A stretch of DNA of 64,000 nt from Cinnamomum chago (taxonomy: Eukaryota; Streptophyta; Magnoliopsida; Laurales; Lauraceae), in NCBI GenBank assembly GCA_038049695.1, contig CP142458.1, positions 66,373,501 through 66,437,500 on the forward strand, read 5' to 3'. The translations under genes and the position numbers were made by a program. Positions 1,636 through 52,636 of the stretch are shown in pieces. Position 1 is the first letter of the stretch. Every line of letters starts with the position of its first letter. Under the pieces are notes generated by a model that was not told the DNA's origin, ran no database searches, and saw nothing but the letters and a program-made list of their open reading frames with translations.

Positions 1636-4489
1636 ACGAGTGTTCCAAGACCGTTTCCCTCCAGTAAGGGAAGTAGACTTTACTATAGAACTCGTGCCGG
1701 GTACGGCACCAGTATCAAAGGCACCGTATAGAATGGCACCGTCAGAATTGTTTGAACTGAAGAAATAGATACAGGATTTACTGGACAAGGGTTTTATCCA
1801 ACCGAGTGTCTCACCTTGGGGAGCACCTGTACTGTTTGTGAAGAAGAAGGATGACACCCTTCGTATGTGTATTGATTATAGGCAAATAAACCAAGTGACA
1901 ATCAAGAATAAATATCCATTGCCGAGAATCGATGAGTTGTTTGATCAACTCCAGGGTGCAGCTTACTTTTCCAAGATTGATCTTCGATCTGGATACCATC
2001 AGATTCGAGTTAAAGATCAAGATGTATAGAAGACTACATTTAGGACTCGATATGACCACTATGAATTTTTAGTAATGCCTTTTGGTCTAACCAATGCACC
2101 TGCAGTTTTTATGGCCTTAATGAATAGGGTTTTTGCTTCATATCTAGACCAGTTTGTTGTGGTCTTCATTGACGACATTCTGGTTTATTCAAAGTCAGAG
2201 CGAGAGCATTCACATCATCTACGAATAGCTTTGCGGACGCTCAGAGATAATCAATTGTATGCAAAGTTAGAGAAATGTGATTTCTAACAGCAGCAGGTGA
2301 CATTTCTGGGCCACATAATTTCCGAAGATGGGATAGCCGTTGATACAGCTAAGATTGAAGCAATTACCAAATGACAGAGTTCGAAAAATGTGCCGGAAGT
2401 TCGGAGCTTCTTAGCGTTGGCGGGCTATTACAGGAGATTTGTAAAAGACTTCTCTAAGATAGAAGCTCCATTAACGAAGTTGATTCGGAAGAACGTTCCA
2501 TTCCAATGGAATAATGAATGTGAGTCTAGTTTCCAAATTTTGAAGCAAAAGTTGGTTTCGGCCCCAATCTTGGCGTTACCTGAAGGAAGAGGAGGATTCA
2601 TGGTTTACTCGGACGCTTCAGGAGTTGGATTGGGATGTGTGTTGATGCAGAATGGTAGGGTAATCGCCTACGGTTTGCGTCAGTTGAAGGAACATGAGAA
2701 GAATTATGCAACACATGATTTCGAGCTCGCGGTGGTTGTGTTTGCCTTGAAGCAGTGGAGACATTATTTGTACAGAGAGACTTTTGAAGTCCATTGTGAT
2801 CACCAGAGTCTCCAGTGCCTGTTCACTCAGAAGGATATCAATTTGAGACAACGTCGTTGGTTATAGCTCATCAAGGACTATGATTTTCCATTCACATATG
2901 TGCCTGGGAAGGGGAATATAGTAGCGGATGCTTTGAGTCGGAAATCTGCTGACTTGGCCTCGCTAGTCGGTGAATGGGATCTAATTGAAGAATTCAGAGA
3001 TTTGGACTTATCTGTTGAAATGGTGGACGATAGAGTAATGTTTGCAGCAATGTCCATTTTTGAACCAATGCTTATCAAGGAAATCAAGGATAAGCAATTT
3101 CAAGACCTTGAATTGGTAAAGATCAAGGACAACCTTGCAACTAGACTAGATTTTGTGCTGGTGGAAGGAGTTCTGTATTTTAGAGACAGATTATGTGTAC
3201 CAGCATAAGAGGATTTGAAACAGGCGATAATGTTTGAAGCTCATCACACTAGATATTTTATGCATCCGGAGAGTATGAAAATGTATAGAAATCTCAAGGA
3301 TAGATTTTGGTGGAATAACATGAAGCGGGAGATAGCAAGCTATGTGTCTTCCTGCTTAACATGTCAGCGTATTAAGTTTGAGCACAAGAAACCGCCTGGT
3401 CTACTTCATCCTCTGAATATACCTAGATGGAAATGGGAGCATTTGACTATGGACTTTGTGTCCGGTTTGCCAAGGACGAGGAGGCAGCATGACTCCGTGT
3501 GGGTGATTGTTGACCGTCTTACGAAGTCCGCGCACTTCCTTCCATTTAGAAAAGATATGGGATTCGGCGAGATGTCCAGGCTGTTCGTCAGGGAAATAAC
3601 TCGATTGCATGGAACACCGGTCTCGATAGTTTTAGATCGAGATAGTCAGTTTGTTTCCTCATTTTGGCAATCCTTTCAAAATTCGATGGGTACTAGACTT
3701 CGGTTTAGCACCGCATATCACCCTCAGACAGATGGACAATCGGAGAGGACTATTCAAACCTTGAAAGATTTGCTTCGTGCCAGTGTTATGGATTTTGGCA
3801 GTGACTGGGATGAACACTTAGCGTTATGTGAATTTGCGTACAACAACAGCTATCACTCTAGCATTGAAATGACACATTTTGAAGCACTGTATGGTCGGAG
3901 ATCGAGGACTCCAATTAGCTGGGAAGAAGTTGGAACAAGGAGTTTCCATGGTCCTACTATAATTGCTGAAACAACTGAGAGAGTTCAGAAAGTACAAGAC
4001 AGACTGAAGGTGGCTCGATCAAGGCAGAAGAGCTACGCTGACAATCGTCAGCGTGATCTGGAGTTCGTCATTGATGACTTGGTGTTCTTGAAAACTTCTC
4101 CAATGAAAGGTACTATCTGGTTCGGTCAGAAGGGCAAGCTTTCACCGAGATTTATCGGACCTTTCAAGATTAAAAGCAGAATTGGAGATGTGGCTTATCG
4201 CCTTGAGCTTCCACCAGAGCTTTCTGGCATTCACAATGTATTTCACGTATCAATGCTTCGAAAGTATGCGGTCGATCCTTCACATGTCATTCAGCATGAA
4301 GAGATCCAAGTTTTGCCAAATACCACGTATGTTGAGAAGCCAACTCAAATTATTGATACCAAGGAGCAAGTCCTTCGCACGAGGACAATCAGATGGGTTA
4401 AAGTCTTTTGGGATCATCATGACCCCAGCGAAGCTACATGGGAGCTTGAAGAGCAAATGGCTCAAAAGTATCCAGAGCTATTCGTTTAG
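1636..4489 (+). pseudogene. pol: Ty3/gypsy chromovirus-like pol remnant (RT, RNase H, integrase, chromodomain-like tail)
   Basis: One frame (positions congruent to 2 modulo 3) encodes reverse transcriptase, RNase H and integrase in the Ty3 order. Visible marks are the RT segment around [12 protein letters not shown] (about 2157-2200), the RNase H segment starting [10 protein letters not shown] (about 2600), the integrase zinc region with HH and C-x2-C (about 3239-3370), and the DDE core with MDF (about 3448), LDRDSQF (about 3631) and the Glu of GQSERT (about 3735). The C-terminus ends in a chromodomain-like block (VKVFWDHHDPSEATWELEEQ, about 4399-4460), as in Tekay/Del-type chromoviruses. The frame is never shifted but carries six stops, near 1766, 2027, 2285, 2373, 2864 and 3207. 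Several fit C-to-T or G-to-A changes of CAG, CAA or TGG, as expected from decay of methylated DNA. Gag and protease are absent, so the copy cannot move by itself. Confidence 0.93.
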
Positions 4490-4549: not shown

Positions 4550-4564
4550 AAAAGTTTGGGGGCA
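4550..4564 (+). other. Polypurine tract of the Ty3 element
   Basis: AAGTTTGGGGGCA lies immediately before the TG that opens the 3' LTR. This is the normal place for plus-strand priming and fixes the LTR start at 4565. Confidence 0.8.
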
Positions 4565-7187
4565 TGTTACCCCGACCCAAACTAATCATGATTAAGGCTA
4601 ATTAATTGAGATTAATGCTAATTAAGCATGGATAAATGGGTTAATCAAGGTTAATGACCAAAGAGAGATAAATTAGCCTCAGATGATGCATTAAGTGTAA
4701 TGAAATGAAATTGAGTTGGTTAAAATGAGTTTAGACTCAAACAAGGTAGACTAAGGACTTTTTCGTAAATACGGGTTTTCACGTATTTCGTCAAATACAG
4801 AAATTCTTGATACCAACGCGTGTATCTCGAATAGTATGTTAACTTTCATAATAGACGCGGTTCCATTTGACCTCAAATGGACCAAGTGAAACTTCATTTG
4901 ACTCAATATGTAATAAAGCTTATTAAGAGGGGGTTTTTGTGTGAAGGAACCTTATATTAGAATGAAATGAATCATTCATTTATTTTTCACTTCAAGCAAA
5001 ACCCTAGACTCATTCTCTCCTTTTCTCTTCCAATCTCCTTCCTCAAGAGAGAAGCTAGGAGTGATCCAAGTAGTTTGTGAGGAGTGTGTTTTCATCTTCA
5101 TCATCTTCCCCAAGCCATCCTCCCCATTGTTGAAGTGTAGAGCTTGAGAAAGATCTCAAGATTTCTCTCATTGAGCTACAAGTACTTGGAACTTTTAATG
5201 AATTTTCAAGTTGCAATGAGTGAGTAGGCATGATTATTAGCATACATAGCTTATGAGATGTGTTTTTATGTTTTCATGGAGTTAGGGCTTGAAATTTGGA
5301 GATTTTAATCTCAACCCAAGCTAAGGAAAGAGGATTTTTGCCACTAAGCTTCAAGAGAGGCAAGTATAAACATATATTTGTGATTTTGTGTGTTATTGAG
5401 GTGTTTGGAGTTCAATGGATTCAATGTACAGAAATTGGCTTCAGAAATCTGAAGCTCAGAAATCTGAAGCTCAGAAATGTTGTTCTGGGTGAATTTCGGC
5501 TAGCCGCAGGGCTAACTACAAGGCTAACGGCCAGAAAACCCCAATTTGATCAGTCTCTAGAAAGCTTACCGCCGAATTTCGATTAATTTCGGCTAGCCGA
5601 ATGGTGACTGCTGGGCTGACCGAAATTGAGTTAGAAATCCCTGTTAGAAAATCAGCTTCTGGAAAGCTGACCGTAAGCTAACCGAACTTGGTTCGGCTAG
5701 CCGTCATCCGAATTTCAGCTAGCCGCCAACGAGGTTTCGGCTAACCGCCAGTGCAGTTCCGGCTAACCGCCTGGTAGCCGCCAAGGTAATCGAACCTGAC
5801 CAGATTATTCAGTTTGAGTCTAGTGAGTTTGGATTTTTGCATAAGCTTGGAGTATTTCTTGTAAGTATAAGTACTCCTTAAAAATTAGTTTTAGAGCTAA
5901 ACTTCATGGGTGATAATTACGGGGACTATTCAATGCACACTTTAAATATATAATTGTAATGTCCATCGGAAATAACACGTGCATTTGGAAACCAATGGTT
6001 ACACTCAAATGGTTGTTTAGACTTGAGACAGAGTTAAGTAGAACCATAAATGATTAGTGAGTTTTCTCATTATATTGTACGCCACATTATTGGGTTCCAA
6101 TCTAGTGAGATTGGTATCACTATTATTCTCTTCTCTTGTCACGAAGAGAATTATTGAATTGAATTGAATCCAGTAATTAATTGCGTATTGGAGAGCATTA
6201 ACTTTTGATTTTGGCACTATCTAGCTATGGTATTAGAACTTTAACTGAGTTCAATGAATTAATAAATGAAGCAAATGATTAATCCTGCTGCAGCAGATGG
6301 ATTTGGGGTGTTCCGAAACTCCGTGGTGGTGCTAGTTGTCCCTGGTCTGGACACTAGTAAGTCCCACATATTCCGATCATATCTATGGGTATTGATTGAT
6401 GCCTTCCGTTTGGAAGACGAAGCCTTCCGTTTGAAAGACGAATCCTTCCTTTGAGGGAAGATGGTAAATTAAATTAAATGAATCATTCTTTGAGGGAAGA
6501 TGGTAAATAAAATGAAATGAAATGAAATGAAATGAATGAATGAAAGTTATGGTAGTGACTATCTTGTACATTGTCATTGTAGAAATTATCTGGACTTGAT
6601 AGAATTGGAATTGTTATTAAATAGATTGAATGAGTTCAATATATGTATTAACATGTGCTATTACTAGATCTGTTTATACATTGTTGAACCGTCGTGTTCA
6701 CTAGTGTTATTGATGGCATTACAGGCCCAATTGCCTTTGCCGGTGCAGCAGCGCCCCCGGCGGCTGCTGAGGAGACCACTCCGGTTCCTCCAGGAGGATT
6801 GAGCGAATGACACGGATGGAATACCATTTGATATGGTATTCGAGTGTGAAAAGGAACTATCACATTTTGAGAAGCGTTTTGAAAAGTTATTTGTTTAATC
6901 ATTGAGATGTAATTTAATTGTTACTATATGGTGTTTTGGGTACATACTAATTGACAAGAAAAATTATGGGAATGATACATGTATGAGGACTCGATTCTTT
7001 TGTATACATGTAAATTGAATTGATATTGTCAAATATATATGTTTCCGCAATATTGTGTATTTGACAGGTTTCTTGAGGATGTTATCCCTTGTGAATTCCG
7101 TTTTTAACTTCGGTTAATTTGGAGTTTATGGGAGTAATTATGGGCTCACCGCTCGTGATTATCGTAATTCAGGCCCGGGTCGTGACA
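4565..7187 (+). mobile_element. 3' LTR (2.6 kb) of the Ty3 element, inserted in a GLR exon
   Basis: It starts TGTTACCCCGACCC right after the polypurine tract and ends CGTGACA. It is followed at 7188 by ACTTCACACT, which continues a GLR exon in the middle of the codons for DFTLPY. Its size and content match the solo LTR at 8332-11023 read on the other strand, including a cluster of GGCTAGCCG and GGCTAACCGCC motifs around 5500-5800. The following ACTTC is the likely target duplication; its partner lies outside the window or is lost. LTRs of this length suit the Tekay/Del branch. Confidence 0.85.
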
Positions 7188-10100
7188 ACTTCACACTACC
7201 ATACATGAGGTCAGTAGTTTCCATGATTGTACCAGTTGTGGACAGCCACATGAAGCGTCTTTGGTGGTCTCTAAAGCCATTAACGTTGAAATTATGGCTA
7301 CTTATAATAGCTCTGTTCTTGTCAAAAGGGGATTCTGGTTTGGATTTTTGAGCATGAAATAACCGAGTTCAAAGGCGCATTTCCAGAACAAGTGGGGAAA
7401 ATCCTCTCTTTCTCCTTCTCCATCTTCGCCTTTGCACGAAGTAAATTATCCAAATCATCTCTTTACTCAATATTACTTCCTAGGCACATTTTCTTTTTAT
7501 TCCTTTTCTTTTCTTTTTTACCATGATGCATCTAGCTTACTGATTGCAGAGGAGACGCTCATAAGCAATTATTCCAGATTGATTGTAGACCTTGGGACAT
7601 TTGGAGTGTTTGTGTTGGTGACAGTTTATGCCGCCATGTTGCAATCAATGCTAACATCCAATAATGATCAACCAACAGTTACGGGCATCGAGCAGCTAAT
7701 TAGGAATGGGGACTATGTTGGGTATCAGAAAGACTCATTTTTCTACGATCTGTTAAAGCAAATGGGTTTCCAGGAACAAAAGCTCAAGGCCTACTCCTCA
7801 ATACAAGAATATGAAATAGCCATATCAAGTGGAAGCCACAGGAATGGTGTCTCTTCAATTATCGATGAGATTCCATATGTGAAGCTCTTTCTCGCCAAGT
7901 CTGCTAACCGATATACGATGGTTGGACCAACTATCAATCCTAGAGGATTTGGCTTTGTATATATGTCTCTCACTCTACTCACTACATATTAATTAGTTAA
8001 AGCAACACTCAAAAGGAAACAAATAATGTTTTTTTTTTCTTAGGAAAGGGAACATATAATGCTTAAGCTATGAAAGTGCCAATAAATTCTGATCTTTTAC
8101 TTTGAAAACCTGGGATTCATGGTCTAGTAACCCTAATTACATGACCATGGATTTGCAAATATCTTAATGCTTCAATCTTTCTGCGGGTATTTTCCAGGGC
8201 ACTTCTCAATTTGGATACCTTCTCTAAATGTTTAAAGTCGCCTTGTATAACAAATAATTGAACAATTTTTTCCCTATTATTCTAAAATTCCGCTCCAAAA
8301 AAGTCTCTCTTAGGCAGTTATGCTGAACTTCTGTCACATCCCGGTCCCGAAATCACCCTGGCCTAGGGTAATCCCCGAGTTGTGGCACACGTACTTCCGA
8401 ATGTTGTACTTGTCTCGAGCCAACTACAACACACGAAGGAGAGAAAATCGACTATTCCACATGTGAGTCTAGCTCACTAATACAAACAAATAACATTTAA
8501 TATAGCGGAAGTCGTAATTCATTTACAAAAGGTATCATCTCCCATTCAGTACAATTAAACATTTAAGTTTGATACAAAAGAATTATACAAGTATATACAT
8601 TAAGTTACAAAAGAGGGACCAATGAAAGAATCCCCATACATCCACTACCAAAAGTATATGCAAAAGAATTTCGTGTGATCACACAAAAAGGGCTAGTCAC
8701 ACGAATTATGATATTTGTAAGTGTAGCACGCACTCCGAGGAGGTAGAATCAAAGCTGACCCTTGTCCTGACCACTCTTCTAATCCTAAAGGTACCTCTTG
8801 AGTAACCTCCTCTCTCTCCGGGACCTCTTCAAGACCGGGAACTGCATCTGCGTCTGTGACACCAAATGTAGTATCTCAATATGATGATTTAGCAAGTTTA
8901 GGCCAAATAAGAAATTACATAATGTTGCAATTTGAAATTAAGATAAGTAAATTAGTGGATAGTAATGATAAGTATCAACTACGCAAATTGTGCAAACCTC
9001 GAATAATCATGCTGGTGAATTAATTAATAAGAAAACAGACTAATTTAGCTACTACTTTAAGCTCATCCTCTCAAAGAGAGCAAATCTAGTTGGGATATCC
9101 CCAGCTGCCCGACCAAAGGCTAACTAGCTACCCGGTTATGGAGTTCCGGTACTCCAGACGACTTACTGCAGTAGTCTCTAATAAATAAACCAAGTTCAAA
9201 CCCCGTTGGGTATCACAAGGTCGAAGCTAGGTAGTGCCGACTCAATCGAATCAATTAATCGAAATAAGAAGTGGGTTCAAGTGAGTTTGTATCTCAAACT
9301 ATCTATAATAAAAAATCAATTCAATTCATATATCATTGTATACTCACTCAATCCACATTTCAAATAAGTACTGAATCGATATTCGATATACAATATTTGA
9401 AGAATGACGGAGGAAAAATAGAGTAATTAAACCTCAAATGATATTGATGATGCAATGATCTATTTATTTATAATGATCGATCTACCAAATGAAAATAGAA
9501 TTCAATATGAAATGCAATAATTTAAGGAATCAAGGAATTTACTAGCCAATCTAGTCTAATCCTCTAATGTTTCCTCACCATCCAATTCGATATACATTTA
9601 AGGAACCTTTACTTAGAGTCACAGTTTAATAAAAAGTTCATTAAATTAATATCTATGGCATGGTGATAAAATCCTGATTTTTAGGGCTACTCAAGTTCCT
9701 AGGGCTTCAATTAAGCAACTAAGAGGTTAGGGTATCAATTCATGGCTCTAAGAGGGCCTTCGAAATAAAATAAAACAATTTAGAAATTCAGGGGTTCAGT
9801 CAGCTGGCGGTTAGCCGCCTGTAGAACAGTCGGCTAGTCGCCAGGTAACCGCGGTTTTCCTGACAGAAATGTCAGCTACTGGAAATGTAACCGTGGGGGT
9901 TCGGCTAGCCGCTAGGATCACGCAACTAACCGCAAGGTGACCGCGTGGCCTGCGGCACTGTTTCGTTTTGCCAAATCTGAAGCTCTCTCTCCTCCCTCCA
10001 TTTCCACACTTCTCCTCACCTTCTATAACAATGGAGCCTCCTTGCTCCCATGTCCAACATATAAGCAATCCATACCTTTTAAATACATAAGGAGAGCCCA

Positions 10101-11836
10101 ACATACAATTTAAATCCAATCTTACATTGTTGAATACTAAGAGTCATGAGTAAAACATTGAATCAATGGAAGTAACAAAATGTAAATTCATATTATGCTT
10201 ATACTTGCCTCGAATTAAGCTTTCCAGAACCTCTCCTACACTCTTGGGTTAAAGAGCCCTAAATTCCCAAATATTCAAACCCTAAACACAAATCAAATAA
10301 AAAGACTGCAATGAATGTTATGAAAGACTACCCAAGAGTCTCTTGATTCCATTTCAACTCAAAAATCCAAACAACAAGAAGTTGAAGCCTACCTCTTGTA
10401 ATGATTCTGAGATTGAAGGAATTGGAAGATGATGAGGGTTGTTTTTTTCTTGCTTACCAAGAAAGAGAGGAAGGGGAAGAGGAAGAGGAACGGTCTTCTC
10501 CTAGCTCCCAAATGCAATTGCCAATGTCTCTTGATGATTGAGAAGGAAAGAAAGAAGAGAAGAATGGAGAAAAAGGAGAACGTAGAGAGGAAGAGAGGAA
10601 AAGGAATGAAAAAGAATGAAAAGGAGTTGTTGTGAGTGATAAGGATGGAAATTTTGCAGAAAAGTCCACAACATTTATGTATTTCCATTTTAAGTCAAAC
10701 GATCCCACTTCTTCAACGGGTGATAAAATGAAGTGAAGCTGAATACGAAAATTGACGTGCTCAACGAGATACACGCGATGACGCCAAGATGACGTGAAAA
10801 TGATACAAAATGTGAAAATTTATAATTACGAAAAAGTCCTTGACTCTACCCAAGTGAGTCAATTCTACGCCACTCACCTAATCAATTCCCAAGACTCTCA
10901 CTTGACTCAGTCTAAAAAGATCAATGGGTACTAATTTTGATGATTAACAACTAAGCATAATTAATCAAGCTAACTCCTCATTAATTAGCACGAATTAAAA
11001 TCAATTTGGGTTGGGGTGTAACAACTTCACACAGTATGAGTAGAACAGACTCATATTTATATGTCATAAGTCGATCAACCCCATCACCTTCAATATATAA
11101 CTTTATGAACCTTTCAAGGTTTCTACTAAACTGTCAATTGCATCACCTTCAATTGTAGTAAATTGAGATTTAGATGTATAGTCTAGCAATTCTTATAGCT
11201 CATAAATACATTGAGATGTTTATAAGCTTATGCTTCAAGCTTGATCATTTTCCATTTTTTTTTTTATTCCTACAGTTGTTTCAGAGAGGTTGTGCTATCG
11301 TGCATGATGTTTCGAGGGCCGTGCTGAACTTCACTGAAGGAGAGAGGGCACATGAGCTAGAGAAGAAATGGTTTGGCTCCCAAGAACCAAATCCTTCCCG
11401 AACTCAAATACCATACAGAGACATGAGATTGTCAACATATGGTTTCCGTGGTGTCTTACTGATTACTGAATCCATTACAGGCTTCGCAGTTCTCATGTTC
11501 ATCGTTGTCACCATATTCAGACACTGGCAAACCGCGAGGGACCCATCATCCAATGGAGCAATAGTAGTCGACAACATTGAAGAATATAGTAATAGATTTT
11601 ACGCTGAAGTGAACGGAAATTCTTTAAATGAAGGTAATCATGTTGTTGTCATAGAGAGTGATCAGGCCACACAAAATGACAATGATCTAGAGGTGGAAGC
11701 TACATTAAATGAGTGTAGCCATTCAGAGACAGCCTATCAAGACAAATCATTTACAGGTGATGAAATGAGTAACAAAAAGCCTATCTGGACAAACTTTTTT
11801 GTCAGAATTTTGGACAAACTCTATAATATCCCTTGA
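7188..11836 (+). pseudogene. GLR copy A: glutamate-receptor-like pseudogene, 5' end removed by LTR insertion
   Basis: Three exons of a plant glutamate-receptor-like channel remain. Exon 7188-7440 covers the end of S1, M1 and the pore region. Exon 7550-7956 covers M3 and most of S2 and keeps DEIPYVKLFLAK. Exon 11276-11836 covers the end of S2, M4 (about FRGVLLITESITGFAVLMFI) and the cytosolic tail. Splice sites match those of copy C. Defects are: everything upstream replaced by a Ty3 LTR; a one-base insertion in the G run 7328-7331 that shifts the M1 frame and brings stops; a 2.7 kb solo LTR in the last intron; and a MITE in the last exon that supplies a new tail and stop at 11834-11836. The M3 motif reads VYAAMLQS rather than the usual plant SYTASL. 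The 3' UTR continues around 12140-12234 and 13018-13085, split by another solo LTR. The coding exons otherwise resemble C closely, so inactivation looks fairly recent. Confidence 0.88.
8332..11023 (-). mobile_element. Solo LTR (2,692 bp), same family as the 3' LTR at 4565
   Basis: The element runs TGTCACATCC...GGGGTGTAACA. It is flanked by a perfect 5-bp duplication ACTTC (8327-8331 and 11024-11028). Read on the minus strand it begins TGTTACACCCCAACCC and ends GGGATGTGACA, as the LTR at 4565-7187 does, and it shares the GGCTAGCCGC-type motif cluster (about 9795-9950). No internal region is present, so it arose by recombination between the two LTRs. It sits in the last intron of GLR copy A. 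ORFs inside it have no recognisable product. Confidence 0.93.
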
Positions 11837-15103: not shown

Positions 15104-17659
15104 CAAAAATTATTATCAAGTAACATCCCTTTTAATGAACACTGAATTGAGGAAAGATGAAAAATTGCCCCGGCCATTACCCTTGTAATTGAATACCTAT
15201 AAAAGCTAAGGCCTACATTTTCACCTTTTATACTTCACTCTTCACCTCCTTCAATAGAGTTCATTTGATCACTAGTTCCAACGTATTTTATGCGAAACAA
15301 ACAGCCTCAAATAAATCCGAAGTTGAAGGAGCGTATATAGTTCCACTTATGAACATTTGAGTTGCTTAAAATGAATGCCCTCCCAATTTATGGGGTATTC
15401 CAAAATCCTATTCCACTTGTCAGATCCAAGGATTGACTGTTTGGGTGTCATAGGGTGCTGCTGTGGATAGCAACACCCATTCCCACACCACCCTTCAGCG
15501 ATCGATCCCTGGAGGGGCAGGTTCCCTTTCCTGCTCTGGCCGCCCGGCCAAATCAGCAAGAAGAAAAAAAAAGGATTTACTGTTTGATAAGACAAAACAT
15601 ACTCCAGTTTTATTGTAGGAATTTTCATCATTTTCATTTATGAGACTTACTAAAATTTTATATAAGGTACTAATCTCAATACTTCATGGGACCAATGTAT
15701 CATAAATTAAACCCCCTCACACTCACTAAACCCCATGAATTGTCACTCACCCTAATTGCACACTAATTATACACTAGGAGCTAATGTTTTTACCTGTCTC
15801 ATTAACCCCAATTAGTAAATGGATAAAATGATCCAGGACTGATTCCGGTCAAGTAACCGGGTCCAGGTCCTGGTCTATCATATGACCCAAATCACCACAA
15901 TGGGTTCCAGTCCAAGTAATGACTTTGACTGTTGAATTTGCCTTGGGCTCCATCAGTCAATCTGTAATGTAATCCACATGAGCCTTCCACTAGCCTCCAA
16001 ACGACCCGTGTCTGTGGGTCTTCCATTGTACAGTTCTGCTGCTATTCCCATTATGCAAGAAACTGGACCGCGTTTGCACCAAATTTCTTCCCCTGATTAC
16101 ATACTCTTGGAATTTTACAGATTGGACAAGATGGCAATGGTGGGCCCTGGAGCTCTTTTCTGTGCACCTGGTGTGTTATTGCCATGTGAGTTTCTTTCTA
16201 AAACACGGTTGGGAAGTGATGATAGTGCAAAGTATTTGGGCCATGATTATAGAACACGTCAAAGCCGAAAGCTTTTTCATTTTTTCTCTTGCCCATCTCA
16301 ATATTTTTTATTGCTTTTAAGGTATTTTAGATGTAAACAAAACACCAATATAAAATAGAAAAAATGAAAACCGGTGTGGCCGAAACTCTATAATGCATGG
16401 ATACTTCATAATAGACAACATATTGTGTTATATAGTGTTGATTACTTTACTTTTTATATGCAAAATCCCTGCAGTGTCTATGACGTGTCCATGCTGTAGA
16501 TCGTAGAGGAAAGTATTATTATTAGACAGTGCAACTCGGCTAACGGGGTAGAATTATTTTCTAGCCTTTCAATGTTTTTATTTTTTTTATTTTTTTAGTT
16601 TTATTTTTATTTTCACAAAAGGGATTTAGATCTCAAGAAACAGAAACCCAGTTTTGTTTATGTTGCAAAACTGTTAGAAACACACTACATTGTGAAAAAC
16701 GTTGCATCACACCACGTACTGGAAATTAGAGCAGCAAAAGTGTTAAAAGTCCTTTAAGTTTTATTTCTATGAAAAATGAAACAACCATTGAAACATGTGG
16801 TGGATACTTCACTCAAGTACATCCCCCCAGGACTTTACAGATGGAAAAAAAGAAAAAAAAAACCATAAAATACACCAGTATATATATTGTACTTTCTAAA
16901 AAAAAAAAAAACTCAAAAGTACCTCTAATGGTTCATATGAGAAATAATCTAGATGGATACTAACAATAGAGACAGAGTGATAGAGGGCCTCATTTTAGAT
17001 GAGATTCTGGAAAGGAGAAAAAAGGCAACCTTGTTTAGGCCTAAAGTATTCACACAGAGTCAAACATCAATTGGAATCAACCAGCATCTAAAGGAATAAA
17101 CCAACCGCGGCCAGCAACTTAATGGAAACGACTGAACAGGAAACTCTGAGGAAGTTTATCTTCAACTTTTTATCTCTATATATACCTTGCATAATGCAGT
17201 TCACAACCTCCCACATCTTTGCCAAAAAAGAAGGAAAGAAACACTGAAAGAAGAATTCTTCCACCTGATAGTTGTTTCGGGCATTACACCAATACACACG
17301 ACTATGTTATTATTGCTGGTGCTTTGCTCCCTACTCTCAACAGCAGCAGAAAGCACTACCCATGGGTTGCTAGCTAACAGTACCAATGGCTTCAAGTGCT
17401 GTGGATGGCATAGAGGGAAAGATAATAGACAGTCTCTTTGTCGCTTCATGCAAAGAGCATCAGGTATGGTCAATTCATCTTCCTGCAGAGAAAGGCATTC
17501 AAGGTTCTAAATCTTGGTGCAGATGTCTGATTTCTCAGTATTATGAAACTAGGTTTGACCTTAGTAATAGCATGGTACAAAGTCTCAGGAATTCAGGCCA
17601 CACCTGAATTTCAGATTCCATGATCATGGTAGTTTTAGTTACAGCCCAACAAGATAACA
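15104..17659 (+). repeat. Tandem duplication unit 1: GLR upstream region plus first exon
   Basis: It matches 18150-21963 (unit 2) in order, with scattered substitutions and small indels, from ATTATCAAGTAACATCCC on the left to CAGCCCAACAAGATAAC on the right. Past 17659 the similarity ends abruptly. Unit 2 has about 170 extra bases (19857-20028), and a hAT-like element interrupts its left part. The unit holds the presumed promoter, the 5' UTR and exon 1 of a GLR gene. Confidence 0.88.
17304..17463 (+). pseudogene. GLR copy B: orphan first exon
   Basis: This is the counterpart of exon 1 of GLR copy C (21602-21767). It encodes a signal-peptide-like start (MLLLLVLCSLLSTAAES) and ends at the same CAG|GTATGG donor in phase 1. 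The first ATG of copy C is ACG here, so the frame would start two codons later. After 17659 nothing matches exon 2 or later exons of copy C, so B is a promoter-plus-exon fragment left by the duplication. It could still be transcribed. Confidence 0.7.
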
Positions 17660-18170
17660 GCTTTTCCTTCTGGGTTTTTTATTTTATTTTTTCCCCTTTT
17701 GAGTGCAATGATTTTGCAGAATTTCAACTTCATAGAGATGGTACTTCTATTTATGGAAAATGGAAATTAAGAAAACATTTTTCTATGATTTCACTTTCAA
17801 ATACTTGGTGCGGCAAAACTTTTCTGTGATCAATGCATTTCTACCTTGAGTAAACTGTATGTAACAATCGCTATCCATTGGGTCCAAATGTGCTCAACCA
17901 TAAAAGATGTTGACAAGAAATTATAAAATTATTATTCCTCATAAACTAATTTCATTTCCTGTGGAAAAGGATCTGCAAACATAAGGGATATTTTCTGCAG
18001 ATGTGACCTGAAAAAGCACCCACCAGCATTTTTTGAGGATTTGTGCACGTTCTTATCTCCTTGAATGGTGGTTACACACCAAATCAAAATTGTGGATTCA
18101 GTAGTCTGCAATCTCTCAATCCCAACCTCTCACAGTCATCGTCCCTTTTAATTAATATCAAGTACCCTCC
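17660..18170. other. Spacer after GLR exon B, no gene seen
   Basis: No similarity to other GLR exons was recognised, and no other gene. The last bases (about 18150-18178) already match unit 1 around 15108-15136, so unit 2 begins here and is then interrupted by the hAT-like element. Confidence 0.5.
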
Positions 18171-19189: not shown

Positions 19190-21963
19190 CTTTTAATGAA
19201 AACTGAATTGAAGAAAGATGAAAAATTACCCCTGGCTATTACCCTTGTAATTGAATACCTAGAAAAGCTAAGGTCTACATTTTCACCTTATATAATTCAC
19301 TCTTCACCTCCTTCAATTGAGCTCATTTGATCACAAGTTCCAACGTATTTTATGCAAAACAGACGGCCTCAAATAAACCCAAAGTTGAAGGAGCGTATAG
19401 TTCCACTTACGAAAATTTGAGCTGCTTAACATGAATGCCCTCTCAATTTATGGGGTATCCCAAAATCCTATTCCACTAGTCCAATCCAAGGATTGACTGT
19501 TTGGTTGTCATAGGGTGCTGTTGTGGATAGCAACACTCGTTCCCACACCACTCTCCAATGATCGATCCCTAGAGGGGCAGGTTCCCTTTCGTGCTCTGGC
19601 CATTGGGCCAAATCAGCAAAAAGGAAAGAAAAAAAAAGAAAAAGAAAAAAAAAGGATTGACTGTTTGATAAGACAATACATACTCCAGCTTTATTGTAGG
19701 AATTTTCATTATTTCCGTTTATGAGACTTACTAAATTTTTATATAAGGTACTAATCTCAATACTTCATGGGACCAATGTATCATAAATTAAACCCCCTCA
19801 CACTCACTAAACCCCATGAATTCTCACTCACCCTAATTTCACACTAATTATACACTAGGTTTGCATTTCATAAAAATTATTCTTATGAAACCATTACACT
19901 TTAAGGCCCTTAAATCAATGATTGTAACGATTCGATTGAGATAAACTTTTTTGTCCAAAAATTAATTTGTAACTAGACCCTTTCATCACACTATCTCCAA
20001 TGATTGGCATGTATCCATATGGGTACTAAGGAGCTAATGTTTTTACCCCAATTAGTAAATGGATAAAATGATCCAGGACTGATTCCAGTCAAGTCAACCG
20101 GGTCAAGGTCCAGGTTCTGGTCTAGCATAAGACCCAAATCACCACAATGGGTTCCAGTTCAAGTAATGACTTTGACTGTTAAAACTGCCTTGGGCTCCTC
20201 CATCGGTCAATCTGTAATGTAATCCATATGAGCCATCCACTAGCCTCCAAACGACCTGTGTCGGTGGGTCTTCCATTGTAAAGTCCTGCTGCTGTTCACA
20301 TTATGCGAGAAACTGGACCGCGTTGCACCAAATTTCTTCCCCTGATTACATACTCTGGGAATTTTATGGATTGGACAAGACGGCAATGGTGGCCCCTGGT
20401 GCTCTTTTCTGTGCACCTGGTGTGTAATTGCATGTGAGTTTCTTTCTAAAACAAAGTTGGGAAGTGATGATAGTGCAAAGTATTTGGGCCATGATTATAG
20501 ATCACGTCAAAGCCGAAAGCTTTTTCTTTTTTCCTCTTGCCCATCTCAAAAATTTTTATTGTTTTTAAGGTATTTTAGATGTAAACAAAATACCAACATA
20601 AAATAGAAAAAGTGAAAACCCGTCGTGGCCGAAACTGTATGATGCATGAATACTTCAAAATGGATAATGTATTGTGTCATATAGCATTTTTGGATACTTC
20701 AATTTTTATGCGCAAAATCTGTCTCCCTGCTATATCAATGACGTGTCTATGCTGTATCTGAGCATCATAGCCAAACGTATTATTATTCGACAGTGCAACT
20801 CTAATGGGGTAGAATTATTTTCTAGCCTTTCAATGTTTTTTTTTTTTTTTTGGTTTTTACAAAAAGGGTTATAGATCTCAAGAAACAGAAACCCAGTTTT
20901 GTTTATGTTACAAAACTGTTAGAAACACACTACATCGTGAAAAATGTTGCATCACACCACATGCCGAAAATTTGAGCAGCAAAAGTGTTAAAAGTCTTTG
21001 AAGTTTTAATTCTATGAAAAATGAAACAACCATTGAAACATGTGGAGGATAATTCACTCAAATACATGCTCCTAGGATTTTTAAGATGAAGATAAAATAG
21101 AAAAGAAACATAAAACACACCAGTATAGATATACTATATTATTTTTCTCCCAAAAGTTTGTTCATATGAGGAGAAATAATCTCACTCCTTGTGGGGTGCA
21201 CACTTAGATGGATACCAGCAATAGAGACAGAGTAATAAAGGGCCTCATTTTAGATAAGAACTTGGTGGGAAAAAAAAAAAAGAAGACAAAGGAACCTTGT
21301 ATAGGCCTGAAGTATTCACACACAGTGAAACATCAAAAAGTAATCAACCAGCATCTAAAGGAATAAACCAACCGCGGGCAGCAACTCAATGGAAACAACT
21401 GATCAGGAACGCCAGCAACTTAATGGAAACAACTGATCAGGAAACTCTGAGGAAGTTTCACTTCAACTTTTTATCTCTATATATACCTTGAATAATGCAG
21501 TTCACAACCTCCCACATCTTTGCCAAAAACAGAAGGAAAGAAACACTGAAAGAAGAATTCTACCACCTGACCGTTGTTTCGGGCATTACACCAATACATA
21601 CATGACTATGTTATTCTTGCTGGTGCTTTGCTCCCTGCTCTCAACAGCAGCAGAAAGCACTGCCCATGGGCTGCTAGCTAACAGTACCAATGGCTTCAAG
21701 TACTGTGGATGGCATAGAGGGAAAGATAATAGACAGTCTCCTTGTCGCTTCATGCGAAGAGCATCAGGTATGGTTAATTCATCTTCCTGCAGAGAAAGGC
21801 ATTCAAGGTTCTAAATCTTGGTGCAGATGTCTGATTTCTCAGTATTATGAAACTAGATTTGACCTTAGTAATAGCATGGTACAAAGTCTCAGGAATTCAG
21901 GCCACACCTGAATTTCAGATTCCATGATCATGGTAGTTTTAGTTACAGCCCAACAAGATAACC
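19190..21963 (+). repeat. Tandem duplication unit 2: upstream region and exon 1 of GLR copy C
   Basis: This is the second copy of 15137-17659. It carries the presumed promoter and 5' UTR of GLR C. Relative to unit 1 it has an additional segment at about 19857-20028. Related sequence reappears near 29127-29270, so that segment may be a dispersed repeat, or ancestral DNA lost from unit 1. Confidence 0.85.
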
Positions 21964-24900
21964 GTTTTGGTAAAAAGGGTACCTATCACGCAAATCTGTG
22001 AAGGGTACCTCTTGGACAGCTTAGCTTATTATTGAATTTCATAGTAGAACTCATAAAAGATGATTACAAATAGATTGGACATGGCTAAGATGTGGAGATG
22101 AAGATAGATAGCAAAACTTGTATTTCATAGTTTTTCATTTGCAGGATTACTGGAAGGGATGATTGGATCCGAACTACATGACACAACCTACGGTGAAAAT
22201 GAAGTTAATTTTCCCCTCATCGCCATAGCCAACAGCTCTTCGTTGTTGCCAACTGGATTTCCTTACTCTGTGTTTGTGGCACAAAATATATACTCCAAAA
22301 GAGTCATTCCAACTCCTGGCCCTAACAATGAAAGGAACATGACATCACCTTATCTGATCTCCCATGAGTATTTTGCAAACAAGAATGGCCAAAAAGAAGC
22401 TCTGGAACATGGTCAACACATTTATTATAAGCAGGCACTTGATCAAGTTGTTGGGCATGCAATAGCCACAACAGATACATTGAATTATTCAGACTCAATG
22501 CATCAATTTATTGAGGAAAGTGATTCGATAGAGATCAACATCAATCTGATCACCTGGGAATTGTTGAAGTTTGCCATTATTCACCTTACTTGCTTGGGGA
22601 TCATGAAGTTGTTGAAAAAAGTTTTCAGCTGGATATCAAGTCATAAAAGAATCATATACAATCAAGGTATGGCTACAGGCTACCCATCAAATGTGGTTGA
22701 TTTTCTATTTCACTTTGTCAACTCTCCTCTTTAGCAAACTCCGTCCAAATTGTCACTCTGTCTCTCTCTTTTCATTCCTTTACTTGTTGCAGATGTAAGA
22801 TCAGTGAGAGTCTGTTTGGAACTCATTTTAATCTTGATGTTGCTGACTACTACTCTACTGGCAATGAGTTACACTAGGAGCTTGAACTCCATGTTGAATG
22901 TTGAGAAGCTACTACCCAGTACTGAAGATGTTATGACCGAGCCAGGTGCATTTCGAAATAGCAGTACCAATATTGCCCGTGGGTGGATCTCAAAAGAACG
23001 CAAGGAAAAGAATAATCCATCACTAGGTGGTGATAGCGAAAATTCTGCCAAGGATAGAGAATATGCAACCAAAGCAACAAGAGAGAAGACTTACAAGAAA
23101 CTGAGGGTTAGGATCCCCTTTAAAGATATGGTTCACAAGTTCCTTAAGTTGAATGAAAAATCAAGAGGCAAACTCCGGATAATGACTAGTCTCTCCTTGG
23201 TTGCCAACTTCCCATATAAGGTTTCTGGTAAGTTCTCTCCGCATAAAAATCACAAAGATGATGAAGAATACACTGGTGAATTCGTTTATGAATTGTATAG
23301 CAAGGTGAATGATTCGGTAAGCTTTGAAGATTTTAGGCGCATGGTTGTTGAACATAAGAGGTCCCAGTCACATGTCGAAAATGAGAAAACTGATGTGAAA
23401 TTAAGGATGCTTGTTCACACCAAAAACACATTCCATGAGTTTGTGAAAGCGGAACAAGATCCCAAAGGCAATGGAATGAACGTGACTGGCTACTCTGTGG
23501 ATGCATTCAAAGAGGTCATGGATAGTCTGCCTTATCCAGTTTCCTATGAGTTCTTTCCATATGAAAATGGCCACTCCAATGATATGGGATACTATGATGA
23601 CCTCATTCAGCAATTGCATCTCAATGTGAGTTCATTTTTCAATTCACCATTTATTATCCTTCTCATTCTTTGCATTGGTCTTCTTCTTTATGTATTTTCA
23701 TTTTAATTTTGAGTTTTGAGTGCAGAGATATGATGGAGTCGTAGGAGATATAACAATCACATCCAACAGAACAAAGTATGGAGACTTCACACTGCCATAC
23801 ATGACATCAGGAGTTTCCATGATTGTACCAGCTGTGGACAGCTTCATAAAGAATCGTTGGTGGTTTCTAAAGCCATTTACTTGGAAATTATGGCTAGTTA
23901 CAATAGTTCTGTCCTTGTCAAAGGGGCTTCTCCTTTGGTATTTTGAGCGTGAAAATAACGAAGATTTCAAAGGCACATTTTTAGAACATATGGGGAAAAT
24001 CTTATCTTTCTCCTCAATCTTTGTCTTAGCACAAGGTAAGTAGCCATGTCATCTCTTTACTTATCATGTCTTAAATTAAATTCCATGAGTGTTCCACTAT
24101 TTTTAATTTTGAATTGGCAAGAAGTTTTTATTTGTTGATTTGTTTATTTATATATATATATATATATATTTTATTTCTATTCTACTGATTGCAGATAACA
24201 AGCTCAAAAGCAACTACTCAAAGTTGCTTATGATCTTTTGGATATTTGGAGTGTTTGTATTGTCAACATCTTATGCTGCCGAGTTGCAATCGATGATGAC
24301 ATCCAACAATGATACACCTGCAGTTTCGGACATAGAGCAATTAATTTTGAATGGGAACTATGTTGGGTATCAGAAAGGATCATTTGTTTATGGCCTTTTA
24401 AAGCACATGGGGTTCCAAAGAGAGAAGCTCAAGGCCTATTCCTCAAAGGAGGAATATGCAACGGCCCTATCAAGAGGAAGTCACAATAATGGTGTATCTG
24501 CAATTATTGATGAGATCCCATATATAAAGATTTTCCTTGCCAAGTATTCTAGTAGATATACCATGGCTGGGCCGACTCTCAGACCAGGTGGCTTTGGCTT
24601 TGTAAGTCTCTCACTCAGCTCACTACATGTTAGTTAAGCTAGAGCTACTATGAAAGCTTATGGAAACATAAAATGCCTAACCGATGAAGATCCCAATCTA
24701 TTGTAGTCTTCTACTTTGAAATAGTGGAATTCAGTCTAGTGACCAGGACTCAAAATATCGGGCAAGATGCCACAATCTAGATGATACGAAGCACATCAGT
24801 ATTTGGTATTTTGACATTAATGCAGCAGTGTGACTATCCCCAAAAATGTCCGTAAAATACTTGGTGTACCAGCTGATATAGCTGAGAAATTCAAACAATC

Positions 24901-25623: not shown

Positions 25624-27346
25624 GCAAACTCTCCTAAGCTCAAGTGTGTGGTAGGGCCCACCTGGGGACCCATATGGTGTGGGGGGGCGGGGGGGCGGGG
25701 GGCGCATTTGTTTTGGGATTTCAAGGACTCCCTAAGATCCTCCTTTCTGCAAAAAAAAAAAAAAAAATCAACCCCAACCGTGACTTCTATCATCTTCATA
25801 TGAGCTCAAAAGTTTAATGGCCAACAATCCATTCCGATCGATACATAGTCGATCCATTAAACTCGAATCTAATCCAAAGTTGGTGGACATGTGCAATTTA
25901 GGGGTGTCGTGTTTGGTCCATTTGGATAGACCAAAGGTGGGCCCCACAGGCATGAGCTTATAAATTTTTATCCTAAGCTCGAGCTTAGGAGAGCCTTGCT
26001 ATACACACACACTTGTGTTTTGAATGGTATATTGGTTATTGGTTAAAAATATTCAATTTATTTGCATAGTATTGCATGAGCAGCACAACTAATTTAATTT
26101 CATAATAAAATACATAATAATAGAAAAAGAAATATGAAAAGTAACTCATGAATAGAGAGTAGATTGGCTCCACATAGTATACTCATTTAGCTGGTTTGGA
26201 GTCTATACACAAGTCAAACATTAGTTAAATCAGGTGGACCTCCACTCCACCGCAAGTCTATCATCATCTTTTTGTCATCCACATTTTGAACCAAAAAAGC
26301 ATACTGGTACCTTGTTCTTTTATGGTGGAACACTTGGATACTCTCAGTTTGTCTTGACTATAGATTTTCATATAGTTTAATGGTTCAAATATGACGCTAT
26401 TATTTTCTGGCACTATCTTAAGCTTCGATAACTTCTCTAAATTTTTATAGTCACCTTATATGCTAAGTTTCTGAAGTACCGAAGCCTTTCTTATGCTGGA
26501 CCTTATAACCTTATAAACTAAGTATGCACATAAAATCTCACATTGCTTTCTCTCTATATGTTGATCAACCACATCAAACAGTGTAACTTTTAGATCATAT
26601 ACAATGATTATGAGCCTTTAATAGGTTTTTATTCAACTGTCAACCCATCACTTTTACATGATGTAAATCAATTTTGTGATGTATGCTACAGTCATTCTTA
26701 CAATTCATAATACATTGAGATGTATACATGCATATGCTTTAAGCATCACCATTCTCATTTTCTACTTCTACAGTTGTTTCATAGAGGTTGTGAAATCGTG
26801 CCCGACATCTCTAGAGCTGTACAGAAATTCATTGAAGGAGAAAAGAAGCCTGAGCTGGAGAACAAATGGTTTGGCTCTAGCGAGCAAAATCCTCCCCCAC
26901 CCCAAAACTGCGAAAGAAACACGAGATTGTCTCTACATGCTTTCCTTGGCGTCTTTATAATCTCTGAACTCATCCCATTAACAATAGCTATCATCTCCTT
27001 CGTTTTCAACAAATGCAGATTCTGGAAAACCAAGTGTAGCCCATCATCTGACAGAGCAGTGGAAGCCCGAAAGAATGAAGATTTTTCTAATAGATTTTAT
27101 GCTGAAATGAATGGAAGTCCTATAAATCAAGGTTCTCATATTGTCCAAGGAGAAAATAATCAAGCCACACCAAATGACAGTCCTCTCGAGGTGACAGTTA
27201 AACAAAATGAGTGTAGCCATTCGGTGATAGCCTTCCAAAACAAATCCTTCACTTGTGATGAGATTCTGCATTCCCGTCGAAGTTCAACAACTGAAAATGG
27301 AGAAATTACTGTGGAGGTTTTTTCCCTACATGGCTTGTCACATTGA
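21602..27346 (+). CDS. GLR copy C: multi-module glutamate-receptor-like channel, six exons, 936 codons
   Basis: Exons are 21602-21767, 22145-22666, 22793-23625, 23726-24035, 24195-24601 and 26774-27346. All junctions are GT-AG, phases agree throughout, and the total is 2,811 nt without a stop. Residues 1-19 or so look like a signal peptide. There is no canonical amino-terminal (LIVBP-like) domain. Residues about 121-180 resemble S1; 191-218 resemble M1; 236-265 resemble M3, with SYTRSL at 255-260; 330-412 are a second S1-like stretch. Residues 432-536 are a good S1, with the ligand-binding Arg in [12 protein letters not shown] (R522). M1 is about 556-578, the pore region about 594-608, M3 about 619-645, S2 651-790 (Glu in DEIPY, E717), and M4 about 802-824, followed by a cytosolic tail. 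The real M3 reads SYAAELQS instead of SYTASL. By family, this is an amino-acid-gated cation channel subunit of the plasma or an inner membrane; true channel activity is uncertain given the altered pore and M3. An unspliced alternative would be several broken genes, but the phase agreement argues against this. Confidence 0.78.
25435..25592. mobile_element. Fold-back MITE inside an AT microsatellite (GLR C intron 5)
   Basis: Arms starting near 25436 and ending near 25590 are inverted copies sharing CTCTCACCTTACTATGAGAG and a GAGGG(T/C)CC block. AT repeats on both sides hide the target duplication. Insertion at TA would fit a Tc1/mariner-type MITE, but this is not proven. Confidence 0.7.
25619..26005. 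mobile_element. Terminal-inverted-repeat element in GLR C intron 5
   Basis: The left end reads GGCAAACTCTCCTAAGCTC and the right end, reversed, reads AGCAAGGCTCTCCTAAGCTC. That gives about 17-20 bp of imperfect inverted repeat. There is no transposase frame. The interior holds a very G-rich run (25681-25703) and an A run. The superfamily was not determined. Confidence 0.6.
25681..25703 (+). other. G-rich tract with G-quadruplex potential
   Basis: Runs of 7, 7 and 6 G separated by single C bases, enough for four G-tracts. It lies in intron 5 of GLR C on the coding strand, within a non-autonomous element. Confidence 0.6.
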
Positions 27347-27539: not shown

Positions 27540-29069
27540 CACGTATAATTTTTTACCCAAAAGTACCTGTAATGGTTCATATGAGGAGAAATGACCTCAC
27601 TCCTTGTGGGGTGCACGCTTAGATGGATACCAATAATAGAGAAACAGAGTAGTAAACGACCCTAACTTTAGATAAGAGAAAAAAAAAAAAAACTTGTTTA
27701 GGCCTTGTAAATTAACAGAGTGAAACATCAAAAGGAATAAGCCAACCACAGCCAGAAACTGAATGGAAACAACAAACAGGAAGCTCAGAGGATGTTTCAC
27801 TTTGGACTGAAATGTCAATTTCTAACTGGAATAATGCAAATCACAACCTCTCACATCACTGCCAAAAGAAAAGGAAAGAATGAAGAATTCTACTTCTATG
27901 TTGAATGTAAAGAAGCTACAACCTAACATCGAAGATGTTACACCTGAACCGGGTGCATTTTGAAATAACAGCACCAATATGGCTGGTGGATGGATCTAAA
28001 AAAAATGCAAGGAAAAGAATAATTCATTGCCAAGTGACGACCTTGAACATTTTGCCAAAGATGGAGAATATGCAACCAAAGCTGGAAGAGAGAAGATTTA
28101 CAAGAAACTGAGAGCTAGAATCCCTTTAAATATGTGGTTTTTAAGTATGTTAAGTTGAATCACAATTTGAAAAGGTAACCAACTAATCAAGACTAGTTTC
28201 TCCGTAGATGTGTCAAAATGGGTGGTGGCTCCTTTTCCATACAAGGTTTTTGGCGAGTTCTCTCCACATGAAAACCAAAAAGATGAAGAAGAATATAATG
28301 GTAGAATCATTTATAAATTGTACAGCAACATCAGCAAGGTGAACAATTCATTAAGCTTTGAGATCCTACGCGCATAATTGTTGAACATAAAAGATCCACC
28401 ACAAATGTCAAAAATGGGAAGACTGATATGAAGTTAAGGATCCTTGTTCCCACAAAAGACACATTCCATGAGTTCATCAAATAGATCATTATCCCAAACG
28501 CAACGGAATGATCATGAGTGGCTACTCTATATATGTGTTCAAAGAGGTGATGGATAGTTTGCCTTATCGAGTTTCATAAAAGTTCTGTTCATATAAAAAA
28601 GGACATTCAAATGATATGGGATACTACGATGAACTCATTCAGCAAATGAAACTCAATGTGAGTTCTTTTCTTAATTTTTAACTTATCCATCCTTCTCATT
28701 GCCTGCAATGGCCTGTTACGTTATTTGTTTTCATTCTAATCTTGAATAATCAGTGAAGAGATATGATGGACTTGTGGGAGATATAACAATCACATCCAAC
28801 AGATCAAAGTATGGAGACTTCACGCTGCCATACATGATGTCAGCAGTTTCCATGATTGTACCAGTTGTGGACCGTCATACAAAGAGTTTTTGGTGATTTC
28901 TAAAGCCACCAACTTTGAAAATATGGCTACTTATAATATCTCTATTCTTGTTGAAGGGAATTCTAGTTTGGGTTTTTTAGCATGAAAATCACCCAGAATT
29001 TGAGGGCGCATTTTCAGAACAAGTGGGAAAAATCACATCTTTCTCCTCCTCCATCTGTCTTTGCACAAA
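27540..29069 (+). pseudogene. GLR copy D: decayed GLR, promoter joined to exon 3
   Basis: 27540-27890 matches the upstream region and 5' UTR of copies B and C. At about 27893 this is joined directly to the middle of exon 3 (M3-like residues LNVKKLQPNIEDV), so exons 1 and 2 and the start of exon 3 are deleted. The exon 3 remnant runs to 28657 with a GTGAGT donor. The exon 4 remnant is 28759-29069, with AG acceptor and GT donor kept. Stops and frameshifts are frequent, for example TGA for Arg near 27961 and TGG-to-TGA near 28895. The order M3-like, extra S1, true S1 is the same as in C. Exons 5 and 6 are missing; a piece of the 3' UTR survives at 31245-31440. Confidence 0.88.
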
Positions 29070-45790: not shown

Positions 45791-46331
45791 TGATGATGCC
45801 AAAAAGTGGTTTCGGACACCACCGGTCAAGTGATATGCAATAAATATGAAAATTAATGAAGAGAGAGAGAGGAGGTTTATAGTGGTTCGGTCGGTGTGAC
45901 CTACGTCCACTTAAAGTGATTACTTTACTGCTCTGGGGAGGAGATTACAAAGTAGTCAGATACAATGATAGTGAGAAAAATCAATCCCCCTTCTTCCGTT
46001 AGTAGGGCTCTCCTTTTATAGTCTTTCCCCAACGGGTAGGGAGAGTCTTCAGCGATCTCCAACGATGTGAGCTCCAATCTGGTAGAATCTCCCGCACTGT
46101 CCTCAACAGATGAGCAGGTAAGATCTCCTCCGCGGGACTTGGTGAAAGTAGGTAGATGAAACGACATGCTGAGTTCGTCCTTCAGTGGATCCGGATCCGG
46201 CCCCTAACGGGTAGATGACGACCCGGGCTCACCATGGACTAAGGTCGGTTTGACCTAACCCGTTATCGTGGGCCGAGCCACTTGGGCCTAACCTGCCACT
46301 ACGGACCGAGATATTTGGGCCTGGCCCATCA
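45791..46331 (-). repeat. Element X 3' LTR
   Basis: 541 bp, TGATGGGCC...GCATCATCA on the minus strand. The TATA-like CTATAAAAGG lies near 46012-46021. It is 99% identical to the partner at 50498-51038. Confidence 0.95.
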
Positions 46332-46479
46332 TTTGCCCCTCAATGTCTCGTGCCAAAGAAGGGTTTGAAAGGGAGACATTAGTAAAACACAAGTTTCTTC
46401 ATGTCAAGAGATTTGTAACTCTTTTCTTCTTCTTCTTTTTTTTTTTTTTTTTTTTTTTTTTAACACTGAACCCCCTTTT

Positions 46480-48716: not shown

Positions 48717-49110
48717 GCGCCCCAGGAAAGAGCTGCTAAGCTGGAGAAAGGCTACCTGTTTGAGAACAGAGCAGAGTTAGGCTAAGCTTTTTTGGCGACC
48801 CGTGAGAGAGCTGCTAAGCTGGAGATAGACTGTTTGTTTGAGAACAGTGTAGAGGTAGGCCAAGCTTTTTTGGCGACCCACGAGAGAGCCGCTAAGCTGG
48901 AGATAGGCTGCCTGTTTGAGAACAGTGCAGAGGTAGGCCAAGCTTCTTTGACGACCCGCGAGAGAGCCGCTAAGCTGGAGATAGGCTGCCTGTTTGAGAA
49001 CAGTGCAGAGGTAGGCCAAGCTTCTTTGACGACCCACGAGAGAGCCGCTAAGCTGGAGATAGGCTGCATGTTTGAAGACAGTGCAGAGGCAGGTCACGCT
49101 TTTTTGGGCG
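48717..49110 (-). repeat. 78-bp tandem repeat of element X
   Basis: Five or so units with GCGACCC at 48795, 48873, 48951, 49029 and 49108. The period of 78 is divisible by three, so several frames stay open. The gag stop lies in the last unit, and gag's final residues are encoded by repeat sequence. Element Y carries the same repeat at the same place. Confidence 0.92.
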
Positions 49111-50446: not shown

Positions 50447-50479
50447 GGCTTTTTGAAAAAAGGAAATTCTTTTCGTTTC

Positions 50480-50497
50480 CCACAGACGGCACCAAAC
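50480..50497 (-). other. Primer-binding site of element X
   Basis: Minus strand GTTTGGTGCCGTCTGTGG directly after the 5' LTR. Element Y (52589) and the Z LTR (61011) have TTGGCGCCGTCTGTGGG at the same place. X has one C-to-T change in that block. Confidence 0.8.
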
Positions 50498-52588: not shown

Positions 52589-52636
52589 GTTTGGCGCCGT
52601 CTGTGGGAATCCGACAAGATTTCCTTTCTCGACATT

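Follow-up and report, generated by a model that had tools for sequence, protein, structure and literature searches.

How does a single plant GLR frame come to carry S1-like segments and M1- and M3-like helices ahead of a complete receptor unit, and what would such a front do? The question is raised by gene C, which lies in a 64,000-nucleotide stretch of the Cinnamomum chago genome (C8:66373501-66437500, hereafter the window; the genome searched comprises 1.06 Gb in 14 contigs). A sequence-only reading of the window had described three S1-like segments and two channel-like modules in one 936-codon frame. Our reading of open frames and splice sites bears out the frame: six exons splice to 936 codons plus TGA with zero internal stops, all five introns are GT-AG (phases 1, 1, 0, 1, 0), and the peptides quoted earlier are present in the claimed order and frame (Table 1). 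From 5' to 3', gene C holds a leader, a scrap of amino-terminal domain (ATD), an S1 relic, an M1 relic, a phase-1 intron, an M3 relic, an S1 N-lobe relic and then the complete unit. The ATD scrap, which opens exon 2, had been missed.

Table 1 Features of gene C and of its broken tandem copy D, in positions of the window.
Feature	Position	Strand	Description	Basis
TATA-box-like site	21478..21487	+	matches TATATATACC; 124 bases 5' of start codon	consensus match alone
Exon 1	21602..21767	+	hydrophobic signal-peptide-like leader, then short Cys-containing stretch; ends SPCRFMRRAS	ORF, splice phase
Exon 2	22145..22666	+	174 codons, phase 1-1	
ATD (ANF_receptor) scrap, exon 2	22195..22299	+	residues 73-107	own-genome ATD profile
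Worn S1-M1 stretch, exon 2	22345..22647	+	residues 123-223	joint S1 + exon 4 profile
M1-like helix, exon 2	about 22546-22614	+		hydropathy
Exon 3	22793..23625	+	relic M3, linker, relic S1 N-lobe, true S1 N-lobe	
Relic M3, exon 3	22819..22932	+	residues 239-276; SYTRSLNSML	M3-exon profile, hydropathy
Relic S1 N-lobe (S1Na), exon 3	23098..23298	+	residues 332-398	S1 N-lobe profile
True S1 N-lobe (S1Nb), exon 3	23398..23625	+	residues 432-507	138.1 bits; AtGLR3.4 match
Exon 4	23726..24035	+	remainder of S1, M1, pore loop	profiles, Pfam, AtGLR3.4
Exon 5	24195..24601	+	M3 (SYAAELQSM), S2	profiles, Pfam, AtGLR3.4
Exon 6	26774..27346	+	S2 end, M4, C-terminal tail, stop	ORF, AtGLR3.4
Broken tandem copy D of exons 3-4	27883..29061	+	internal stops, pieces in three frames	

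Residues 433-832 of gene C match AtGLR3.4 (PDB 7lzh) over a full S1-M1-pore-M3-S2-M4 unit (E 3.1e-62). Pfam, run on the whole protein, places Lig_chan at residues 559-809 (64.8 bits, cut-off 30.8), Lig_chan-Glu_bd at 447-541 (42.9 bits, cut-off 30) and SBP_bac_3 at 455-780 (40.5 bits, cut-off 26.4). These matches agree with the segment previously picked out as the true S1, and the S1/S2 and M1-P-M3-M4 unit places gene C, by sequence, among the plant GLRs of the iGluR superfamily. The Pfam search of the protein gave zero matches to the ATD family PF01094, leaving the 35-residue scrap alone. An ATD is not strictly defining for plant GLRs, because it is absent in about 11% of them; the accessible text of PMC4995503 gives 11.03%, with 74% of these in the GLR1&2 subfamily, and describes tandem expansion too. 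The true M3 reads SYAAELQSM and the relic M3 SYTRSLNSM, against a consensus of SYTAxLxxx, and plant GLRs are described as diverging from the animal form (accessible text of PMC11479355). The deviation of the true M3 from this consensus counts against the explanation that we favor below.

General searches are silent on the front. In the whole protein, Pfam finds zero families before residue 447; given exon 2 or exon 3 alone, it finds zero iGluR families, and in exon 3 it also overlooks the part of the true S1 encoded there. A phmmer search of residues 231-432 against PDB sequences matched none of 177635 sequences at E up to 10, and single-sequence AlphaFold2 of exon 3 alone gave a mean pLDDT of 39.6, with the relic M3 as the sole confident helix. 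The iGluR likeness proposed for residues 100-430 thus fails in general Pfam searches and holds with profiles of the genome's own GLRs. These profiles were built from GLR exons outside the window: 12 of 18 tblastn rows were kept for the S1 N-lobe, 15 of 21 for exon 4, 19 of 23 for exon 5 and 15 of 18 for exon 6, after window rows and short partial rows were dropped; the kept rows include paralogs of gene C from its own cluster, and some carry stops written as X. The relic matches were compared with 2000 local (8-residue-block) and 2000 full shuffles.

Against these profiles, the relic M3 matched M3 and the start of S2 at 18.7 bits, and S1Na matched positions 1-74 of the S1 N-lobe profile at 20.0 bits; each score was equalled in 0 of 2000 local and 0 of 2000 full shuffles. 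The S1-M1 stretch of exon 2 aligned in order to positions 44-151 of a joint S1 and exon 4 profile (11 loci) at 12.7 bits, a score equalled in 2 of 2000 local and 0 of 2000 full shuffles. Taken singly, its matches are weak: the S1 N-lobe profile gives 5.5 bits (equalled in 3 and 4 of 2000 shuffles) and the exon 4 profile 3.2 bits (40 and 20 of 2000). The exon 2 relative in the paralog P3 reached 20.5 bits against the joint profile (0 of 2000 in both shuffle types), and those of P5 (4.7 bits, equalled in 23 and 23 of 2000) and P6 (1.2 bits, equalled in 51 and 67 of 2000) scored poorly, which we count against our preferred explanation. The ATD scrap, which resembles the beginning of the ATD exon, matched a profile of five own-genome ATD exons at 11.9 bits (1 of 2000 local, 0 of 2000 full shuffles) and shares 16 of 31 residues with the ATD gene at C8:66153742, which contributed to that five-member profile. 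Its alignment to the AtGLR3.4 ATD (chain 138-179) is sub-threshold at -0.8 bits, and its length of about 35 residues likewise counts against that explanation. The S1-like segments reported earlier, three in all, are thus recovered together with the M1- and M3-like helices ahead of the true unit, and by these comparisons the GLR resemblance of the front is real but worn.

The exon structure carries the same likeness. The introns before the relic M3 and the true M3 fall at the same place in the same phase, the same M3 profile position being the tenth residue after the phase-1 junction in both exons. The relic M3 has a hydropathy of 2.43, with its most hydrophobic 19 residues at 22810-22866. It is identical to the M3 of the ordinary GLR L007 at 15 of 38 residues and to those of L004, L005 and L006 at 14 of 38, compared with 10 of 38 for the true M3 of gene C itself. 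The relic M3 of P5 behaves alike (10 of 38 to L004, 5 of 38 to its own M3), but for the P6 relic the closest match is the true M3 of P1 (11 of 34). From the nearness of the C and P5 relics to ordinary GLRs, a matter of few residues, the donor's M3 was probably of the ordinary kind. Could hydrophobic helices and low-information stretches produce such likeness by chance? The silence of the Pfam and PDB sequence searches and the weakness of the single exon 2 pieces would fit, but shuffles that keep local composition, the P3 exon 2 score and the matching intron place and phase make this highly improbable. For exon 3 it is refuted by the shuffles; exon 2 has fewer bits.

The front also lacks parts of a channel unit. 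The exon 2 match extends no further than profile position 151 of 179; the pore loop is not reached, and few residues of the exon remain beyond this point. The conserved S1 arginine is a ligand-binding residue, and at this place the NR of the profile aligns to DT in the exon 2 relic. Of the relic S2, the exon 5 profile was matched over positions 8-45 only, compared with a match to 134 in the true exon 5, and no exon-6-like match that would represent M4 rises above shuffles in the front. Lacking the pore loop, the S1 arginine, most of S2 and M4, the front cannot be a second channel of a known kind, and we rejected a second working channel in gene C on these absences. The helices claimed for a first channel-like module are thus present and its pore loop is not. 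The M1- and M3-derived helices and S1-derived stretches do stand in channel order, as two working modules in one subunit would have them, but with these parts gone and the related copies degenerate we give that arrangement very little credence.

The front recurs in pieces across the C8 cluster, whose members are P1-P7, B, C and D (C8:66335001-66362000 and 66371001-66373500 were covered by whole-genome searches alone). A whole-genome search with the front, in which the best candidates were scored, gave at least 14 matches at E up to 1. Among the matches listed, the ten with E of at most 7e-5 all fall within the C8 cluster (two each in gene C, P5 and P6, and one each in D, P1, P7 and P3); the weaker ones are three C8 rows, at E 0.06-0.6, and a single C2 row at E 0.3. 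Among the copies examined, the whole front is open in gene C only. Because the matches in P1, P3, P5, P6, P7 and D are partial, reduced or broken, the fusion appears to be old and to have arisen within a tandem GLR array. Six of the eight copies with exon 3 (C, P2, P3, P4, P5 and P6; P1 and P7 differ, and the shortened D is uncounted) have in common that this exon follows a GCAG acceptor and opens with an intron-split D codon and a hydrophobic helix (hydropathy 1.6-2.4). P1 has no such helix at exon 3 in its open frame, and P7 has one in frame with a Met before it and no GCAG at that place. P7 (L043, C8:66364945-66365898) is a 318-codon frame in which the signal-peptide-like MRTLLFLILFLIVISP replaces the relic M3.

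Relatives of exon 2 were found in P3, P5 and P6, shortened in P3 and P5 and bearing stops in P6. In P5 a stop truncates exon 2 on its upstream side, and exon 6 contains a stop and is spread over several frames. An exon 2 remnant in P2 was unsupported, with 719 of 2000 shuffles as good. No match to exon 1 or exon 2 was found for copy D, a pseudogene; at window 27544-29061, D's relic exon 3 comes immediately after a stretch with 66% likeness to 21137-21542, the region that precedes exon 1 of gene C. Copy B (window 4564-7188 and 7187-11779) is matched only from inside exon 4 onward. Its match begins where a repeat ends, the inverse of which lies at C8:66274911-66277420 in two pieces (79-80%), and the front of copy B seems to have been cut off at that repeat.

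Exon 1 has tblastn matches at window 17301-17498 and, in small searches, in P1, P2, P3, P4 and P5 (E 2e-12 to 0.012), those of P2 and P4 each with an internal stop. Tandem blocks at window 15129-17664 and 19190-21968, 85-89% alike, hold the region before exon 1 together with exon 1; after the 17.3-kb copy, no further gene C exon was matched until gene C itself. Derivation from the exon 1 usual in GLRs, such as that of the genes A1 and A2, finds no backing in sequence (311 and 213 of 2000 shuffles equal), the two sharing only their place and a like donor context, TCAG/GTATG. Around gene C on C8, loss of the ATD is common. Of 41 genome-wide matches to the ATD profile, one, the minus-strand gene at 66153742, falls in this part of C8, and A1 (C8:66170501-66175126) and A2 (C8:66179290-66182570) each have a leader-like exon followed by an S1 exon with a short pre-S1 stretch and no match in that ATD search. 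Elsewhere, C4:88.13-88.67 Mb holds 9 of 79 Lig_chan matches and C4 holds 0 of 41 ATD matches, so that region is possibly a second ATD-less GLR cluster. Three copies with 6896-base spacing at C8:66199694-66216067 are 65-68% like the inverse of window 1865-4446, and window 46001-56000 has a GC content of 0.49-0.60, compared with 0.33-0.47 in 2-kb bins outside it.

Substitution rates were compared between gene C and its paralogs. Selection in the true unit shows in S1Nb, with an omega of 0.24-0.50 (7 pairs), and in exon 5, with 0.31-0.50 (8 pairs), a point in favor of the explanation preferred below; omega is 0.45-1.64 for exon 4 (7 pairs) and 0.62-0.91 for exon 6 (6 pairs); since exons 4 and 6 are loose too, the whole of gene C may be relaxing. 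In the front, omega is 0.77 for exon 2 in the C-P5 pair (bootstrap 0.43-1.42) and 0.66 in the C-P3 pair (0.34-1.27), and 0.49 (0.20-0.99) and 0.64 (0.30-1.21) for the relic M3. S1Na varies with the partner (0.20, 0.28, 0.94 and 1.18), dS being near saturation in the two low pairs. Judged by these ratios, constraint on the front is weak, which counts against that explanation. In neutral simulations of substitutions only, with indels left out, the 374 front codons stayed free of stops in 20 of 1000 runs at 0.1 changes per site and 3 of 1000 at 0.15, and all 936 codons did so in 4 of 1000 at 0.05 and 0 of 1000 at 0.1. Half of dS to P5 and P6 over S1Nb and exons 4-5 is 0.07-0.19. The pattern fits a frame held open with little demand on its letters.

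These values bear on whether the locus is dead or partly dead. The front would then be a non-coding relic of an upstream GLR, with the transcript starting at exon 3 or skipping exon 2, or the gene would be a young pseudogene, which we consider possible but rather unlikely. Its neighbors lend it weight, D having decayed through stops and frame changes, P6 carrying stops in exon 2 and P5 being broken in exons 2 and 6; so do an exon 2 omega indistinguishable from 1 and the phase of exon 2, which makes in-frame skipping possible. The rarity with which the front stays open in the simulations and the intact splice sites of gene C speak against it, and without exon 2 the protein would lose its M1-like helix, which on topological grounds would probably leave S1 facing inward.

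Taken together, we think it probable that gene C is a divergent plant GLR that arose by collapse of a tandem GLR array, its front being at most a vestigial stand-in for the ATD; the product would most likely be a GLR-type subunit in which a vestigial two-helix leader stands where the ATD was. A deletion inside the array would have joined the front of one GLR copy, comprising leader, ATD scrap, S1, M1 and M3, to the S1-bearing exon of a following copy, with one further partial S1 remaining between. Exons 1-6 would form one transcript, and the leader would take the protein into the ER. The relic M1 would then run inward and the relic M3 outward as a membrane hairpin, followed by a long linker and the normal S1 on the outer face. 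Hydropathy windows of 1.3 or more mark six regions, namely the leader, M1', M3', M1, M3 and M4, and this number of helices would leave the tail inside and both S1 and S2 outside. The true unit by itself would provide ligand binding as well as the pore; the relic front would have no ligand or ion role of its own and would be no more than a leader or spacer where the ATD usually stands. The earlier interpretation of the front as a second channel module is not upheld, given its missing parts and its reduced or broken copies.

A stronger version would make the front a selected, translated N-terminal module that replaces the ATD, the M1/M3 hairpin keeping the ligand lobes outside in a five-helix GLR; we regard this as doubtful. 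If true, the helix of P7 that stands at the place of the relic M3, with its preceding Met, would have become a signal peptide, and the tandem subfamily would recycle a pore helix as a targeting element. Under the array-collapse explanation that we prefer, the consequences depend on expression. If gene C is expressed, tandem receptor arrays may gain new subunit architectures, a neighbor's channel leftover filling the place of a lost ATD with topology kept, and annotators would be warned that ATD-less GLRs may hide relic modules that Pfam misses. If it is not, gene C would be a clear fossil of array collapse.

The layout had been called unfamiliar among plant GLRs, and we too found no GLR with relic S1, M1 and M3 in front among the papers listed in searches of the open-licence literature, outside which most subscription papers lie. 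In its residues 433-832 gene C has the S1-M1-pore-M3-S2-M4 order of AtGLR3.4, and it shares with other GLRs of the genome the breaks of the open frame in S1 and before M3. It differs from plant GLR channels in having an ATD scrap alone, a relic GLR front and the M3 motif SYAAELQSM. GluR0 of Synechocystis is, like gene C, an iGluR without an ATD, whereas it is bacterial, K+-selective and without M4, and no relic front is mentioned in the accessible text of PMC11479355. The ATD-less GLRs of tandem arrays in PMC4995503, as far as its accessible text goes, resemble gene C in both lacking the ATD and expanding in tandem; in those GLRs domains are reported as missing, whereas in gene C relics of S1, M1, M3 and S1 fill the place of the ATD.
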